Source of the DNA: Oceaniferula flava
GTDB lineage: Bacteria; Verrucomicrobiota; Verrucomicrobiia; Verrucomicrobiales; Akkermansiaceae
Direction: 5' to 3'
Length of the DNA: 64,000 bases
Assembly (NCBI RefSeq): GCF_016811075.1
Contig: NZ_JAFBGL010000006.1
Coordinates: 186,001 to 250,000 of the forward strand
A program made the translations under genes and the position numbers. Positions 6,626 to 35,337 of this stretch are shown here, one piece after another. Numbering within the stretch: the stretch's first letter is position 1; the number at the start of each line of letters is the position of its first letter. The notes under the pieces were generated by a model. It searched no databases and was not told the DNA's origin. It worked only from the letters and a program-made list of their open reading frames with translations.

Positions 6626-7408
6626 ATGGACGCCTACACCCAGAAACGCCTGCTGATCCTTACGCTTCTGTTAGGAGGAGTGATCGGTGGTATGATGTCG
6701 CTCAGCGATAAGGTGAAGCGTGAAAATGCGGCGGCTGAGGACGAGTCGACAGCCATCTCCTTCACCCCCACCCCCTATGATTACCAACTGCGTGAACCGT
6801 CAACGGATGGCACGGGGAAAATCTACATGGGCCGCGAAATCTCCCAGGTGATGGGGCATGAGGGGATCGATTGGCTTGAGCGCTCGACCCGCGAGCAGGA
6901 AGAAAACCCAAAGCGGGCAGTGCAGGGGCTGACGCTGAAACCGGATGCGGTGGTGGCCGACATCGGTGCCGGCTCTGGCTACTACACCTTTCGCATTGCA
7001 CCCTTGGTGCCGGAGGGCAAGGTGATCGGGGTGGATGTTCAGCCTGAGATGGTGGCCTATCTTTATCAAAAAAGTCAGCAGCTGGCAGTGACCAACGTGG
7101 AAGCGCATTTGGGAAACGTGGATAACATCCGTCTGCCCGAGGCCTCACTGGATGCGGCGATCTTGGTGGATGCCTACCACGAATTTTCTCATCCCAACGA
7201 GGTGATGCAGTCGGTTTACCACGCGATGAAACCGGGTGGTCGGCTTTACTTGTTAGAATACCGGGCGGAAGACGACAGCGTGCCGATCAAGCCGCTGCAC
7301 AAGATGTCGCAAGCGCAGGCGATCAAAGAAATGGAAGCGGTCGGTTTCCGTCACCTGCGCACCGAGGATTTTCTTCCGTGGCAGCATTTCATCGTCTTTG
7401 AGAAGTAG
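6626..7408 (+). CDS. Class I SAM-dependent methyltransferase with N-terminal membrane segment
   Basis: The SAM-binding motif I is VVADIGAGSGYYTFRIAP, followed by VIGVDVQPEM (motif II) and MKPGGRLYLLEYR (post-motif). The protein is 260 residues from the ATG at 6626. Residues 8-26 (RLLILTLLLGGVIGGMMSL) form a single membrane segment or uncleaved signal anchor, with charged residues on both sides. A SAM enzyme outside the cytoplasm would lack cofactor, so the domain may face inward as a tail behind an N-out anchor. The substrate is unknown. The start is chosen because the longer frame begins with an unlikely GTG in the opposite gene's leader. Confidence 0.78.
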   Translation: MDAYTQKRLLILTLLLGGVIGGMMSLSDKVKRENAAAEDESTAISFTPTPYDYQLREPSTDGTGKIYMGREISQVMGHEGIDWLERSTREQEENPKRAVQGLTLKPDAVVADIGAGSGYYTFRIAPLVPEGKVIGVDVQPEMVAYLYQKSQQLAVTNVEAHLGNVDNIRLPEASLDAAILVDAYHEFSHPNEVMQSVYHAMKPGGRLYLLEYRAEDDSVPIKPLHKMSQAQAIKEMEAVGFRHLRTEDFLPWQHFIVFEK

Positions 7409-7458
7409 CGGGCGCTAATTTCCTGTGCTTTCCAGTCGATGCGGAATACAAGGCCTGC

Positions 7459-8193
7459 ATGCGACCGCTCTTTGAAGAAATCGATTACCAGTCCACGCCC
7501 TTGGGCGATGTTATTTTACGTCGCCGCACCATGATGACGCTGGATAACTTGGAAGTCTACGAGATCATGCTCGGTGAGGATTTCCTGATGTCGAGTTTGT
7601 TCACGGTGGTGGAAGAAGAGCTGTCGCGGCTCGGTCTCGCTGCCACCCAGAAGGTCTTTCCTGACACCAAGCTGGATGTGGTGGTCGGTGGTCTGGGGCT
7701 TGGCTACACCGCCAAAGTGGCCCTCGATCATGCCTCGGTAGGCTCGCTCAATGTGGTCGATTATTTACAACCGGTGATCGACTGGCATCAGCGCGGACTG
7801 GTGCCGCTCGGCCCGGAACTCACCGCCGATCCACGCTGTCGTTTTGTTCATGGCGACTTTTTCAAATGCGCCCTCAGCGATGGTCCGGGTTTCGATCCGG
7901 ATGACGCCGGGATGAAGTTTCACGCGGTGCTTCTCGACATCGATCACTCGCCAGACCATTTGCTCAATGAGGCGCATGGCAACTTCTATCAGGCGGAAGG
8001 GCTCAAGCAGCTGGCTGGCCGACTGCACGATGGCGGCGTGTTCGGGCTGTGGTCCGATGACCCGCCTGAGGAAAAGTTCATGGCAGCGCTGAACGAGGTG
8101 TTTGCCTCGGTGGAGACCTACGTGGTGCCCTTCAAGAACCCGATCTTGGGTCGCGACTCGGAGAGCACGGTCTACGTCGCCCGACGCGCCTAG
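7459..8193 (+). CDS. Spermidine synthase-like SAM-fold protein
   Basis: A 244-residue soluble protein with the spermidine synthase/methyltransferase Rossmann core: LDVVVGGLGLGYTAKVAL as the glycine-rich loop, VVDYLQPVIDWHQ as the acidic ribose-binding strand, and FHAVLLDIDHSP as the catalytic strand. The N-terminal beta domain is short. True SpeE proteins carry a D(T/S)xDP motif; here it reads DIDHSP, so polyamine synthesis is uncertain and a methyltransferase role is possible. It follows the anchored methyltransferase by 50 bases and may be co-transcribed with it. The stop is 12 bases from the convergent unknown gene. Confidence 0.75.
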   Translation: MRPLFEEIDYQSTPLGDVILRRRTMMTLDNLEVYEIMLGEDFLMSSLFTVVEEELSRLGLAATQKVFPDTKLDVVVGGLGLGYTAKVALDHASVGSLNVVDYLQPVIDWHQRGLVPLGPELTADPRCRFVHGDFFKCALSDGPGFDPDDAGMKFHAVLLDIDHSPDHLLNEAHGNFYQAEGLKQLAGRLHDGGVFGLWSDDPPEEKFMAALNEVFASVETYVVPFKNPILGRDSESTVYVARRA

Positions 8194-8205
8194 GCGACTC
8201 GCTGA

Positions 8206-9417
8206 TTATTTGGCAAAGCGGATCGAGTGCATCACCTGCTGGGCGAAGCCATTGCGCAGGCGGTCTTTCAAGCTGTTAGGCTCGCCGGCTGAGCCATTGA
8301 GCATCAGCACCGCTGCTGCACCCTCGGCTTTACCTTCCTGGAGGATGCCGGCGAATTTGACAAAAAACTTCCTGCCATCCTGATGCGCCATCTGGGTGAC
8401 GATGATGCCGGCATGATAAGGCCCGACCTTGGTTTGATAACGCCCGATGATTTTGGCGTCCTGGTATCCTTGGAAAAACTTGGGGACCATCTGCTTTTCC
8501 AAGAGCGTCACGGCCCGGTGCACGCGGGCGTTCATCGGCGCAGTGGGATCCACGGCGAGGCTGGTGAAACGCACGCTTTGAAGATATTCCTTATCGGCAT
8601 TGGTCAGGGTGAAGCGCACGGTTTCGGGCACTTGCGGGTGACCCATGATCATGACGTGCTCGGTGGTCGGTAAGGTGACGGAAAATGGAGCGGCAATAAT
8701 TTTGTCCGACCCCTTGGACTTGGCAAAACTGGCATCCACATTGACCAGCTTTCCTTTGCCAGTGATGTTATCGACTTTTTCCTCAATGGTGCGCAATGGG
8801 GGCAATTTTTTCGGTTCAGCCTTTGGGCTGGCCGGTCCACCCTGCTGTGGTGGGAATTTAAACCCAGGATAGTTCGCAGCCATCAATTCTTGGTTCCAGT
8901 GCTTCTTGCTCAGCGTGACGAGTTTACGAAACGGTTCCTCCTTTTCAGGTTTGGCCCGTAGAGTGAAGTGCCGAGCGAGCAGGGCTTTGCCGTTTTTAGC
9001 TGGGTAATAAACGAAGGTGTTGAACTTGATCATGCGCTCATTTTTCTCGTAGTAGCTGATGCCTGAGAGCTTGGGGTCTTTGATAGGAATGATCTCAGCA
9101 CTCACGCCTTCCTTGGCCAAATTAGCCTTCATGTTGTTCACATATTGAGCTGCATCATGGATGCCGGGGTAGACATACATACTGACCTTATGCGTCCAGG
9201 TGGTGGGCGTTTGTTTAGGCAGGTAGTAGCTATTGATGAGCACTGTTTTCCCCTGAGTCACCATCCCTCGGGTGTAGGTTTGTTTGGAAAAAGTGAGAGT
9301 GACCTCCTGATCTTCCTTAACAGGCGCAGCGGCTGGAGCTTGGGCTAGGATTACGTGTGGCGATGCCAGCATCAAGGCTGAGGAAACTAACAGATGGGGG
9401 TATTTCAAGAGTTTCAT
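8206..9417 (-). CDS. Secreted protein of unknown function, 403 residues
   Basis: No family recognised. The ATG at 9417 gives a signal peptide (MKLLKYPHLLVSSALMLASP, cleaved near AQAPAAAP). The mature protein has two alpha/beta-looking halves joined by a Pro-rich linker around residues 190-215 (PGFKFPPQQGGPASPKAEPK). The pattern of Lys-rich, amphipathic strands with aromatic residues suggests a periplasmic or outer-membrane-associated protein. It lies about 105 bases downstream of the large sulfatase on the same strand and might be part of its transcription unit, but no functional link is shown. Confidence 0.72.
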   Translation of the reverse strand: MKLLKYPHLLVSSALMLASPHVILAQAPAAAPVKEDQEVTLTFSKQTYTRGMVTQGKTVLINSYYLPKQTPTTWTHKVSMYVYPGIHDAAQYVNNMKANLAKEGVSAEIIPIKDPKLSGISYYEKNERMIKFNTFVYYPAKNGKALLARHFTLRAKPEKEEPFRKLVTLSKKHWNQELMAANYPGFKFPPQQGGPASPKAEPKKLPPLRTIEEKVDNITGKGKLVNVDASFAKSKGSDKIIAAPFSVTLPTTEHVMIMGHPQVPETVRFTLTNADKEYLQSVRFTSLAVDPTAPMNARVHRAVTLLEKQMVPKFFQGYQDAKIIGRYQTKVGPYHAGIIVTQMAHQDGRKFFVKFAGILQEGKAEGAAAVLMLNGSAGEPNSLKDRLRNGFAQQVMHSIRFAK

Positions 9418-9522
9418 AATCGACACTCTCTCATAAGATATCAAATGCAGGAAGCCTATTCAGATGTGAATAGATGGTTGTTATCAGTAGATTGTGATGA
9501 TTTCTGCCAAGCCGATTGCCGT

Positions 9523-12500
9523 TTATTCTGCCAAGATTCTTAGAAATCGTTTGTCGGTGGGCGTCGTGCTGTCGTCTGCTTCGATCATGACACGTTGGAA
9601 ATCGCTTCCTAACAGAGGGTGGCTTTCCGCTGAGATTTCTGTGGATGGTAGCGTCCAGCTACTGAGGTCATTCGATACCTGCACAGTATAAGTGAGCGCA
9701 TGGCTGCCAGACACACGGCGGTTGTAGGTGACCTCTAATTTTCCTGAGCTTGAGTTAAAACTAACTTCGGGAGTTGGTAGACTTGGGTCTGCGATATGAG
9801 GGTTACCTCCGAAGGCATACTCTGAGAGGGCGCTGACACCATCCAGATCGCCGTCGCTTGTCCACGCAGGCAAGTGGTTGCCATGATGTCGATACCACCA
9901 TGCGCCGGCTGCTTGTTCATTGGCGTTAACAAGTGTGACGATTTCGCTGGAAGTGAGCGCTGCGTGGAAAATTTTCAGCTCGTCAATCTCGCCGCCGAAG
10001 TTGTAGCCGGAAGCATGGGGCGATGCCCCGATCATGATCGCAGAGCCGGCCGCGGTGTTGATGCTGGCGCTGCTGGAGTTGCTGACATTCTCCAACATTC
10101 CATCGACGTAAAGCCTGGCTTCATTGACATCGGTGCTGCCATTCTGATCGAAGTCATCGACCACGACCGCCACGTGGTGCCAGCTGCCATCGTTCAAGGT
10201 GGTGCTGCCTTTGATGAAGCCGTTTTGCACTTCCAGTCGGAGCACTTGGTTGGTGCCGTTGTCCAAGCGGAAGCTAAAGCGTTCGCCAGTGTTGTTTTCG
10301 CCGTAGCTGAAGATGACTTGGTTTTCGGCCGCTGCTCCCGGGGGCGATTTGATCCAGGCCCCGACTGTGCGCGCGCTGCTGCCGGTGGGCACGCTGATGT
10401 CGGTGAGCGAGACGGCATCGCTGGTGCCATTGAAGCTCAGTGCGAAGCCATGTTTTCCCGCAACGTGCGCCGCCTCGGGAGCAGTGAAGGCGGCCATGCT
10501 GCCGGCTAACAATCCGCCAGCTTCATAGACTGAGGCGCCCGAGGTTTCATTGAGTGGGAACCAGAGGTCAGTGGTGGCCACGTTGACATCCACCGTCACG
10601 CTGGCTGTGGCGGTGAACTGGCCATCGGTCAGCTGGTAGCTAAACTGGTCACTGCCAAACTTTCCAGCGGTGGCCGTGTATTCAACCTGGTTGCCGATGA
10701 TTTGGACGCTGCCAAAATGTGGCTGGGTGACCGACTGAATGCTCAGTGCCGACGGGGCACCGTCATCGGAGTCGTTGGCAAGCACAGGAATGCTGACCGG
10801 TGTTGTGCCCGTGGTGCTGGTCCGGTCTGGGTTGGCGATCGGTTCCGGCGGGGGTGTTCCAAAGCGATAGAACGCACTGTTAGAAATTGTTTGCTGGCTG
10901 ATCCCCGGGCCGGAATACTGCAGGTTGATGTCGTGGTTGCCGCTGCTGTGTTTGTATAGCACCCGAACAGGATGCAGCCCTGCCTGCAATCGCATGCTGC
11001 CGGTTTGCGGGCTGCCATCGTGGTGGAAGTCGTCATCAATGACATGGCTGTCGTGGATCCAGAGCATGCCGCCGGACGCATTGGTGCCGACGCTGCTGTC
11101 GGTGGTCATCTGAAAAGTATAAGTGCCCTCGCTAGGGATGGAAATATAGCCGGTAAATTCTAACAATAAATCCTGATCCTGAGGGCGCTGGGTGAGATCA
11201 AGATGGGTGCAATCGCCACTGGCCACCGGGGTGAGGTAGGCAGTTTCAGGCACCCAGTCCCACTGACCGGTGTAGGCGCGGTAATTCAGTCCATTGACCG
11301 CACTGGTCGGCGGATTGGGTGCAGCAAACTCGCTGCTGAGGTAGCTGCGGGTGTAATCCCCGTCGGTGCGGATCTGCAGGACCTTGTCCTTCATGTTCTG
11401 CTGCAGATCGACTTTCGAGGCTGCGAGGTTAGTGGTTTCGCCAGGATCGGCATCGACATCGTAGATGAGGAAATCCTGACTGTGAGAGGTGATGTTGTAG
11501 CGGATCCCTTTGTAGCGCGTGCCATCGCTATCATCGAGAAAGACGACCTGCATTTCTGCCCGCTGGCTATTTTTATGCACAGGGAAATCCGCGTAGTTAG
11601 GGGTCGAGCCGTTGTTCTGGTATTCGAAGTAAAGATAGCCCTTGTCCAGCTGGGTGCCGCTGCCGGTGAGTTCCGGGAGCAGTGAGACACCACTAGACCA
11701 CGCAGGTGGTGTCAGGCCCGCGGCGTCACTCAATGTCGGCATCCAGTCCCAGAAGGCGGAAGGTCGCGTCGAGTTCAGACCTTCGGTGTTCGGGTTGTTG
11801 TCGCCGATCTGAGTGGGCCACCAGGCAAAGGTGGGCATGCGGATGCCGCCCTCCCAGGTGTCACGTTTGATCCCTTCAAAGTTGCCGTAGGAATCGAAAT
11901 TTTGCGGATCATGTTTCACCGACCCACCGCTTCCCGACTCGTTGTGGGTGCCGTTGTCCGAAGTGAAGATGACCAAGGTATTGTCCGCGATATTCAAGTC
12001 GCGCAGGGTTTGCAGGATGTCGCCCATGGCTTGGTCGATGCGTCTGACCATGGTGGCGTGGCGGGCGGCGGCATTCCCCAGGGAGGCGTAGTCTGGGTGG
12101 ATGTAGCTGTCGTTGGTGCCTGAGTTGGTATTGAGCGGCCAGCTCAGCCCACCGGTGATGCCGGAGCCGGCTGGATAGGCCTGGGTGGGGACTTGCAGCT
12201 GAGCGTGCGGGGCATCGTATGCGAGGTAGATGAAGAAGGGCGTTTCCGGATCGCTGTCGGCCCGATCTTGAATGATCTGCTTGGTTTTCGCGGTCCACAG
12301 ATCGGTGGTGTAGGCGTGGTCGAGCCCCGTGGTGACGGCGCTGGTCTGCTCGATCACCGTTCCGCCATTGCCCGGGTAATGCTGGTGACCGTGGCCGTGG
12401 CGGATGTATCCGTAGAAATAGTCGAAGCCTCTCGAGTTGGGCCTTCCGTCCACCGTGGGGCTGGTTCCCCCGACGCCCCATTTGCCCACGCAGGCGGTGT

Positions 12501-33914: not shown

Positions 33915-33960
33915 AAAAAATTTCAGCCGTCCCGGTAATCCGAAACGGCTGAAATTTTGT
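33915..33960. terminator. Bidirectional terminator between yifB and the Cys-repeat gene
   Basis: AAATTTCAGCCGT (33918-33930) pairs with ACGGCTGAAATTT (33945-33957), a 13-base perfect stem with a 14-base loop. A-runs on the left and T-runs on the right let it act for both strands. Confidence 0.85.
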
Positions 33961-33976: not shown

Positions 33977-34207
33977 TTAGGCCTCTTTCTTTTTGCAACC
34001 GCCTTTGCAGCCGTCACCATCGGTGGTCACGGTGAGTGCTGTGGCTTCTTTCTTTTTGCAGCCACCCTTGCAGCCGTCATCAGTGGTCACAGTGAGGGTT
34101 GTTGCTTCCTTCTTTTTGCAGCCGCCTTTGCAACCTCCGTCGCATTCGGCTGAAAGTGTGGAGAAAGTCGCGGCGAGGGCGAATGTGGATGTAATGAGTA
34201 GTTTCAT
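33977..34207 (-). CDS. Small secreted Cys-repeat peptide
   Basis: A 76-residue peptide of unknown family. Residues 1-20 (MKLLITSTFALAATFSTLSA) are a signal peptide. The mature part has three copies of GCKGGCKKKEA, at about 25-35, 45-55 and 66-76. They are separated by ATTLTVTTD-like linkers with periods of 20 and 21 residues. There are seven cysteines (22, 26, 30, 46, 50, 67, 71) in CxxxC pairs and nine lysines just after them. It could bind metal, form disulfide-linked aggregates, or be a modified precursor peptide; none is shown. It has its own terminator and a palindromic leader. The repeats make frameshift-free DNA tandem units of about 60 bases. Confidence 0.8.
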   Translation of the reverse strand: MKLLITSTFALAATFSTLSAECDGGCKGGCKKKEATTLTVTTDDGCKGGCKKKEATALTVTTDGDGCKGGCKKKEA

Positions 34208-34229
34208 AATAAGTGTAGTTTAGTTTTTT

Positions 34230-34241
34230 GCTCAATTGAGC
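34230..34241. promoter_or_regulatory. Perfect 12-base palindrome in the Cys-peptide leader
   Basis: GCTCAATTGAGC is a perfect dyad 22 bases upstream of the Cys-peptide ATG on the minus strand. A TATAAC -10-like element lies just upstream at 34244-34249, so the palindrome overlaps the expected transcript start. This suits an operator or a small 5' hairpin. No known regulator motif is claimed. Confidence 0.5.
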
Positions 34242-34467
34242 CGTTATAAACCAAGAAAGATTATCTTAGGTTCTTAGGGTAAGCGATGTGGAGTCGGTAT
34301 TTGTTTGCTGATTTGAGTTTATTTCTAATCACAATGGCCAACCCAAATGACCTCTAGCCTGATTTTTTCTGAAAATGAAGCTGATATTGTGACTGCATCG
34401 AACCTTACAGAATCGGGCGAATGGGGATGAGTAAGGGCGAAAGCATCGCCATTAGAGCTCTAGCTCG

Positions 34468-34500: not shown

Positions 34501-35337
34501 ATGACCACTAACGTAGAACTTCACCATGGCGACTGCCTGCAAGGGATGGGGCAGCTCCCTGCCGGGCAGGTGGACTTGGTGGTCACTTCTCCACCTTATA
34601 ATCTGGGCATCGATTACAACACCTACCGCGATACCAGCGAGCGTCAGGCGTTCATCGCCTGGTGTCTCGAGTGGGCGGCGGAGGTGAAGCGGGTCATGGC
34701 GGATGATGCATCGTTTTTCCTCAACGTCGGCGCTGTGCCGAAGAATCCGCTGCTGCCCCACCAGCTGTTACTGGCGCTGACCGACGGTGACGACCCGCTG
34801 TTCATCCTGCAAAATACCTTCCACTGGGTGAAATCCATCAGCGTGGAAACCCGCGGGGGGGACACCATCAGCACCGGGCATTTCAAACCGATCAATAGCA
34901 AGCGCTACGTCAACGACTGCCACGAATACGTCTTCCACTTGACCAAATCCGGGGAGGTAACGCTCGACCGCAAAGGCGCGGGGGTCCCCTACGTGCACAA
35001 GTCCAACATCAGCCGCTGGGGGCACACCGAGGGCGAAGACAAACGCTGCCGGGGCAACACCTGGTTCATCCCCTACGATACGATTAAAAACCGCTCGAGA
35101 GACCGGCCTCACCCCGCCACTTTCCCCGTGGGGCTGGTGCAGCAGTGCATCCGAATTCACGGCAAGGGTGAAAATACCCACCTGCTCGATCCCTTCAACG
35201 GCATCGGCACCTCGGCGCTGGCTGCGGTGCGATCTGGGATCATTTCCTACACCGGATTTGACATTGACGCCGATTACCTCGATGTCACCCGCGAACGACT
35301 CCGCGCGGAACATGAAGAACCGGCCGAAACTACCTGA
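34501..35337 (+). CDS. Orphan site-specific DNA methyltransferase (N6-adenine or N4-cytosine type)
   Basis: A 278-residue enzyme with catalytic motif IV as TSPPY at residues 29-33 and the SAM-binding motif I as FNGIG at about 232-236. This catalytic-then-SAM order is the beta class. The TSPPYN form is common in N4-cytosine and some N6-adenine enzymes. The middle segment (about 60-200) would be the target recognition domain, with HEYVFHLTKSGEVTLDR and RGNTWFIPYDT. No restriction endonuclease is adjacent, so it may be a solitary, possibly regulatory methylase. One base separates its stop from the next start, so translation is probably coupled to dus. Confidence 0.85.
   Translation: MTTNVELHHGDCLQGMGQLPAGQVDLVVTSPPYNLGIDYNTYRDTSERQAFIAWCLEWAAEVKRVMADDASFFLNVGAVPKNPLLPHQLLLALTDGDDPLFILQNTFHWVKSISVETRGGDTISTGHFKPINSKRYVNDCHEYVFHLTKSGEVTLDRKGAGVPYVHKSNISRWGHTEGEDKRCRGNTWFIPYDTIKNRSRDRPHPATFPVGLVQQCIRIHGKGENTHLLDPFNGIGTSALAAVRSGIISYTGFDIDADYLDVTRERLRAEHEEPAETT

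Follow-up and report, generated by a model that had tools for sequence, protein, structure and literature searches.

The Locus and Its Gene

The window, that is the whole stretch of 64,000 nucleotides analysed here, carries on its minus strand a gene whose ORF translates into MKLLITSTFALAATFSTLSA-ECDGGCKGGCKKKEATTLTVTTDDGCKGGCKKKEATALTVTTDGDGCKGGCKKKEA (Table 1). This 76-residue protein combines a signal-peptide-like N-terminus, with a putative cleavage site after SA (...STLSA), and three identical GCKGGCKKKEA units, and it holds seven cysteines in CxxxC spacing. The ORF and the repeat analysis confirm these points of the preliminary description; however, the nine lysines that it had counted in the repeats are 12, with 13 in the entire protein. 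At the DNA level, the tandem repeat (33980-34132, period 60) is one of only two arrays within the window, and the ORF listing gives an antisense ORF of the same length opposite the gene.

Table 1. Features of the repeat-protein gene and its flanks (positions in the window).
Feature	Position	Strand	Basis
76-residue Cys/Lys repeat protein, predicted to be exported	33977..34207	-	ORF; stop 33977, ATG 34205-34207; family profile E 8.1e-11; codon pattern
Predicted signal peptide MKLLITSTFALAATFSTLSA	34148..34207	-	Sequence; same type of N-terminus in relatives examined; model helix 8-19
Mature repeat region ECDG-GCKGGCKKKEA-TTLTVTTDD-GCKGGCKKKEA-TALTVTTDGD-GCKGGCKKKEA	33977..34147	-	Tandem repeat, period 60; units; no confident fold, mean pLDDT 40.7
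12-base palindrome GCTCAATTGAGC in leader	34230..34241		Exact; probably incidental
Candidate -10 element TATAAC	34243..34248	-	Read from sequence; promoter scan at chance level
Bidirectional terminator-like stem-loop	~33917..33958		z -7.0 on the minus strand (the gene's), -5.0 on the plus strand

The gene and yifB (TIGR00368) converge, while an N6/N4 DNA methylase gene (PF01555) and a tRNA-dihydrouridine synthase gene (dus) lie upstream in divergent orientation. The methylase (34501-35337) is Type II-like (PADLOC MTase_II, E 1.9e-78) and is retained in 13 of 14 genomes in the genus, where dus is often its neighbour. In the other genomes of the genus yifB is not found within 1.5 kb, so that the window gene marks an edge of the conserved gene order. 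The terminator that had been described as the gene's own does exist as a strong stem-loop; however, since this structure is bidirectional and lies between the convergent yifB and window genes, the terminator is shared by both.

A perfect palindrome had also been reported over the expected transcript start. It is exact and does overlap the start expected from the TATAAC element; however, chance alone should give about 16 perfect palindromes of 12 bases in 64 kb, and in 47 relatives the upstream regions lack GCTCAATTGAGC. The 3.95-Mb assembly contains a single copy of it, and the promoter-like matches around it are at shuffle level in the promoter scan. The single copy, the lack of conservation and a number within chance led us to reject it as an operator; it is probably incidental, even if a role as a private operator of the window gene is conceivable.

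Codon comparisons between the three units of the window gene gave 14 synonymous differences (five, five and four in the pairwise comparisons) and no non-synonymous one, which argues strongly that the ORF is translated into a protein under selection. Between the Cys-pair cores of all members the pooled pN/pS was 0.26; two members exceed 1, so that selection differs among members of the family.

An Uncatalogued Family in Akkermansiaceae

Relatives were searched with the single sequence, then with profile A1 (five members) and profile A2 (14 members), and matches were accepted at E <= 0.001. The single sequence gave one match below 0.001 outside its own genome (G043, E 6.4e-4, from another family of the order) and several weak matches, some of which proved to have the same architecture. 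A1 found further members, and A2 matched in 98 of the 260 Akkermansiaceae genomes, mostly with one gene per genome. By genus label, counted by eye from the A2 result table, the positive genomes are 66 in g13, 16 in g7, 10 in g11, three in g12, two in the window's own genus g1 and one in g6, and among these 260 genomes g3 had no A2 match. The window protein scores E 8.1e-11 against A2 in its own genome, a value obtained partly by construction, since A2 includes the window sequence. Within its genus only its own genome and G013 score, and 12 of the 13 other genomes do not, so that the gene is dispensable in that genus. In G013, two divergent family paralogues lie within 4 kb (L022, about 7181-11039).

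Judged by its sequence, the window protein has what defines the family, a signal peptide followed by Cys-pair units with a basic/acidic run, and the matches show that most genomes of four Akkermansiaceae genera contain this uncatalogued family. The earlier statement that no family is known for the protein therefore holds for Pfam, NCBIfam and PDB, where neither the window protein nor family members gave a convincing match, but not for the profile search, which found a large uncatalogued one; the repeat search in relatives that had been proposed yields homologues with conserved cysteines. Weak matches in PHROGs, Pfam and NCBIfam (E 0.0025-1), to differing families for each member, were set aside as compositional chance. 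The exact DNA motif TGYAARRRNGGNTGYAARAAR, searched in 387 genomes of the order, hit family repeats in its own genome only, and the other four matches were attributed to chance. Viral contigs gave 27 pattern matches, none of them confirmed as family, and plasmids gave no family match.

When one member was used as query against public genome contigs, seven named loci were matched, and from their titles (Akkermansiaceae, Verrucomicrobia, Akkermansia muciniphila) the family range was taken as Akkermansiaceae. The public MAG records L136-L138, titled Akkermansia muciniphila, carry the family; the first (G308) was placed in g13, and the titles look unreliable. Phylum-wide, clear members are confined to the window's family, and weak look-alikes occur elsewhere. 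These include short signal-peptide Cys/Lys-repeat proteins (L075, L085, L076 and L078) from further genera, families and classes, which are possibly convergent.

In 48 distinct members, the part that follows the signal peptide consists of 3-9 units, most of them 16-26 residues long, counts that are approximate because unit borders were drawn by a regular expression. Exactly two cysteines are found in 250 of 277 units (90%), usually as CxxC, CxxxxC or CxxxC, and after the pair come a run of Lys/Asp/Glu and a short hydrophobic-Ala end, typically KKEGTLA, EEALLA or DPALA; unit length and the sequence outside the Cys pairs vary across the family. The composition is extreme and made up of K, E, D, G, C, A, L and T (25.6% Lys, 10.2% Cys, a single Arg in 5611 residues), and the number of cysteines is even in 39 of the 48 members. 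The window protein is divergent in its GCKGGC spacing, in TTLTV/TALTV in place of TLLA and in its C-terminal KKKEA; set against the hydrophobic-Ala end, its unit end KKKEATTLTV and its protein end are of a divergent form. AlphaFold returned no confident structure for the window protein (pLDDT 40.7) or for a regular family member (39.4), and since the alignments were shallow these low values are weak evidence for disorder.

Across 23 neighbourhoods no neighbour is conserved between genera: apart from the family gene and the frame antisense to it, nothing recurs. No metal gene was seen adjoining a family gene. By this gene context, the family gene stands alone.

A Promoter-Like Motif Upstream of the Family Genes

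Inspection of the 48 family upstream regions suggested the motif GAA(T/C)A-N15..18-(T/C)TCN, which is present in 28 of them, a circular count since the pattern was derived from those regions and then fixed. In the held-out test, 16 of 20 family upstream regions fetched later contained the motif, 73-103 bases ahead of the start; at the background rate of 1.85% of 130-bp windows the binomial P is ~1e-24, kinship being ignored. At other gene starts of the same loci it was found once in 130. The motif occurs in g7 and g13 (loci L042-L163), whereas neither the window gene nor the members examined in g11 and g12 have it. It is a conserved, gene-specific promoter-like element in two genera. Extracytoplasmic-function sigma promoters have the shape GAAC...TCT, which the GAAYA motif appears to resemble. 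This conserved promoter offers a direct way to learn the inducer of the family.

A Putative Exported Cys-Pair Buffer

The explanation that we favour, tentatively and with somewhat less than even confidence, is that of an exported, disordered Cys-pair protein that would buffer thiophilic metals or redox much as a bufferin does, but without the MNIO enzyme; export, disorder, location and buffering are all features that we infer. Among the three earlier suggestions of metal binding, cross-linking and a modified peptide, metal binding appears to be the best. The window protein would be exported by Sec and cleaved after ...STLSA, and its mature part would stay unfolded, either extracellularly or in the periplasm. 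Every repeat would there offer one cysteine pair in a flexible Gly/Lys/Glu setting, as an independent site either for a soft metal (Cu(I), Zn or similar) or for dithiol/disulfide exchange, so that capacity would rise with repeat number; conservation of the pair, and not of the intervening sequence, suits such a buffer. The mode of action would be like that of bufferins or of an exported metallothionein, with no need for MNIO. We count in favour of the buffer the architecture found in 98 of 260 genomes, the two-Cys units with their peculiar composition, the codon pattern, the lack of a predicted stable fold, the gene-specific promoter in two genera and the likeness to the Buf_EGKCG/oxazolin group. 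Against it are the lack of an adjacent metal gene and of a conserved context and the patchy presence in the window's own genus; moreover, CxxC pairs in the periplasm might just be in the oxidised state, and high Lys together with Glu/Asp is not required for binding Cu(I) or Zn.

A structural envelope or matrix protein, forming a disulfide (perhaps also Lys) cross-linked network whose charged repeats bind polysaccharide or surfaces, would account for the export signal, the repeats, the mostly even cysteine numbers, the polyampholyte composition and the lack of enzyme partners. We consider it rather unlikely, as aromatic or adhesive residues are almost absent, there is neither an anchor domain nor a partner locus, and very short members (45 residues in G022, 76 in the window) are poor scaffolds. 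That the gene is a spurious or decaying ORF is hardly credible: it is small, of low complexity, patchy in the genus and opposed by an antisense ORF of equal length, but its homologues in 98 genomes and the purely synonymous codon differences refute the idea, and the terminator is suitably spaced.

Repeated Cys motifs in a precursor with a signal peptide are a typical trait of MNIO substrates (PMC12452194), and the window protein has a sub-threshold match to TIGR04114, so its cysteines might be modified, as in a RiPP precursor of the bufferin or CXXX-repeat type, by an MNIO, radical SAM or unknown enzyme encoded elsewhere. This is improbable. The window's own genome (98.5% complete) has no match to MNIO (PF05114), to the SPASM domain or to the CXXX maturase TIGR04115, which disfavours the modified-peptide suggestion of the preliminary description; MNIO is also absent from six family-positive genomes (G013, G043, G023, G024, G025 and G035), no neighbour is conserved, and Thr is not conserved across genera, which speaks against lanthionines. 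We give similarly little credence to a polyprotein cut at the hydrophobic-Ala ends into several short thiol peptides. At internal unit boundaries, position -1 is Ala in 216 of 230 and -2 is L, V or I in 210, counts that are partly by construction because this motif was used to place the borders; junctions such as DPALA|GKC look like the end of the signal peptide, AFA|GDC, and the protein C-terminus usually falls exactly at the motif. Internal sites, however, lack a preceding hydrophobic stretch, which makes signal peptidase unlikely, no protease is linked, and the window member has TV-TT boundaries and a C-terminal KKKEA. A further reading is distinctly improbable: the family would be an exported thiol system of Akkermansiaceae, independent of any enzyme and served in two genera by a promoter class of its own, and cleavage of the repeats at their Ala ends, which resemble that of the signal peptide, would yield several near-identical Cys-pair peptides as carriers of metal or redox equivalents beyond the inner membrane.

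Comparison with Known Systems

Metallothioneins are usually cytosolic. The family proteins share with bacterial metallothioneins and exported copper storage proteins a small size, a richness in cysteine and likely soft-metal ligands; they differ in having no convincing Pfam match and no PDB match, in being built of tandem two-Cys units and in not forming a four-helix bundle. CXXX-repeat peptides (TIGR04114) also have repeated cysteines with three residues between them, and the weak match covers residues 22-31 of the window protein; however, it reaches 15.3 bits against a curated cut-off of 20, none of the other 13 members scanned matched, and the radical SAM maturase and the SPASM domain are absent from the window's genome.

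Among published systems the Buf_EGKCG/oxazolin group comes closest, although the family is not a member of it. The proteins of that group combine a signal peptide with 17-residue two-Cys repeats in varying number, and metal-related or redox functions have been suggested for them (PMC12452194). Like these HvfA-type, MNIO-modified precursors, the family has a signal peptide, variable two-Cys repeats and Gly/Lys around the cysteines, together with a predicted export and a proposed role in metal or redox; unlike them, it has the EGKCG motif in none of the 48 members, its units have a hydrophobic-Ala end, modelling gave no beta-helix with confidence, and the window gene stands alone in a genome without the MNIO gene that is usually adjacent in that group. 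Another Verrucomicrobiales genome has, at an MNIO locus (L029, about 1130), a bufferin-like Cys-rich precursor (MSTKHLIASAAFAGLLSGAYA...). If metal buffering without MNIO is true of the family, it would represent a second route to the job that bufferins do.
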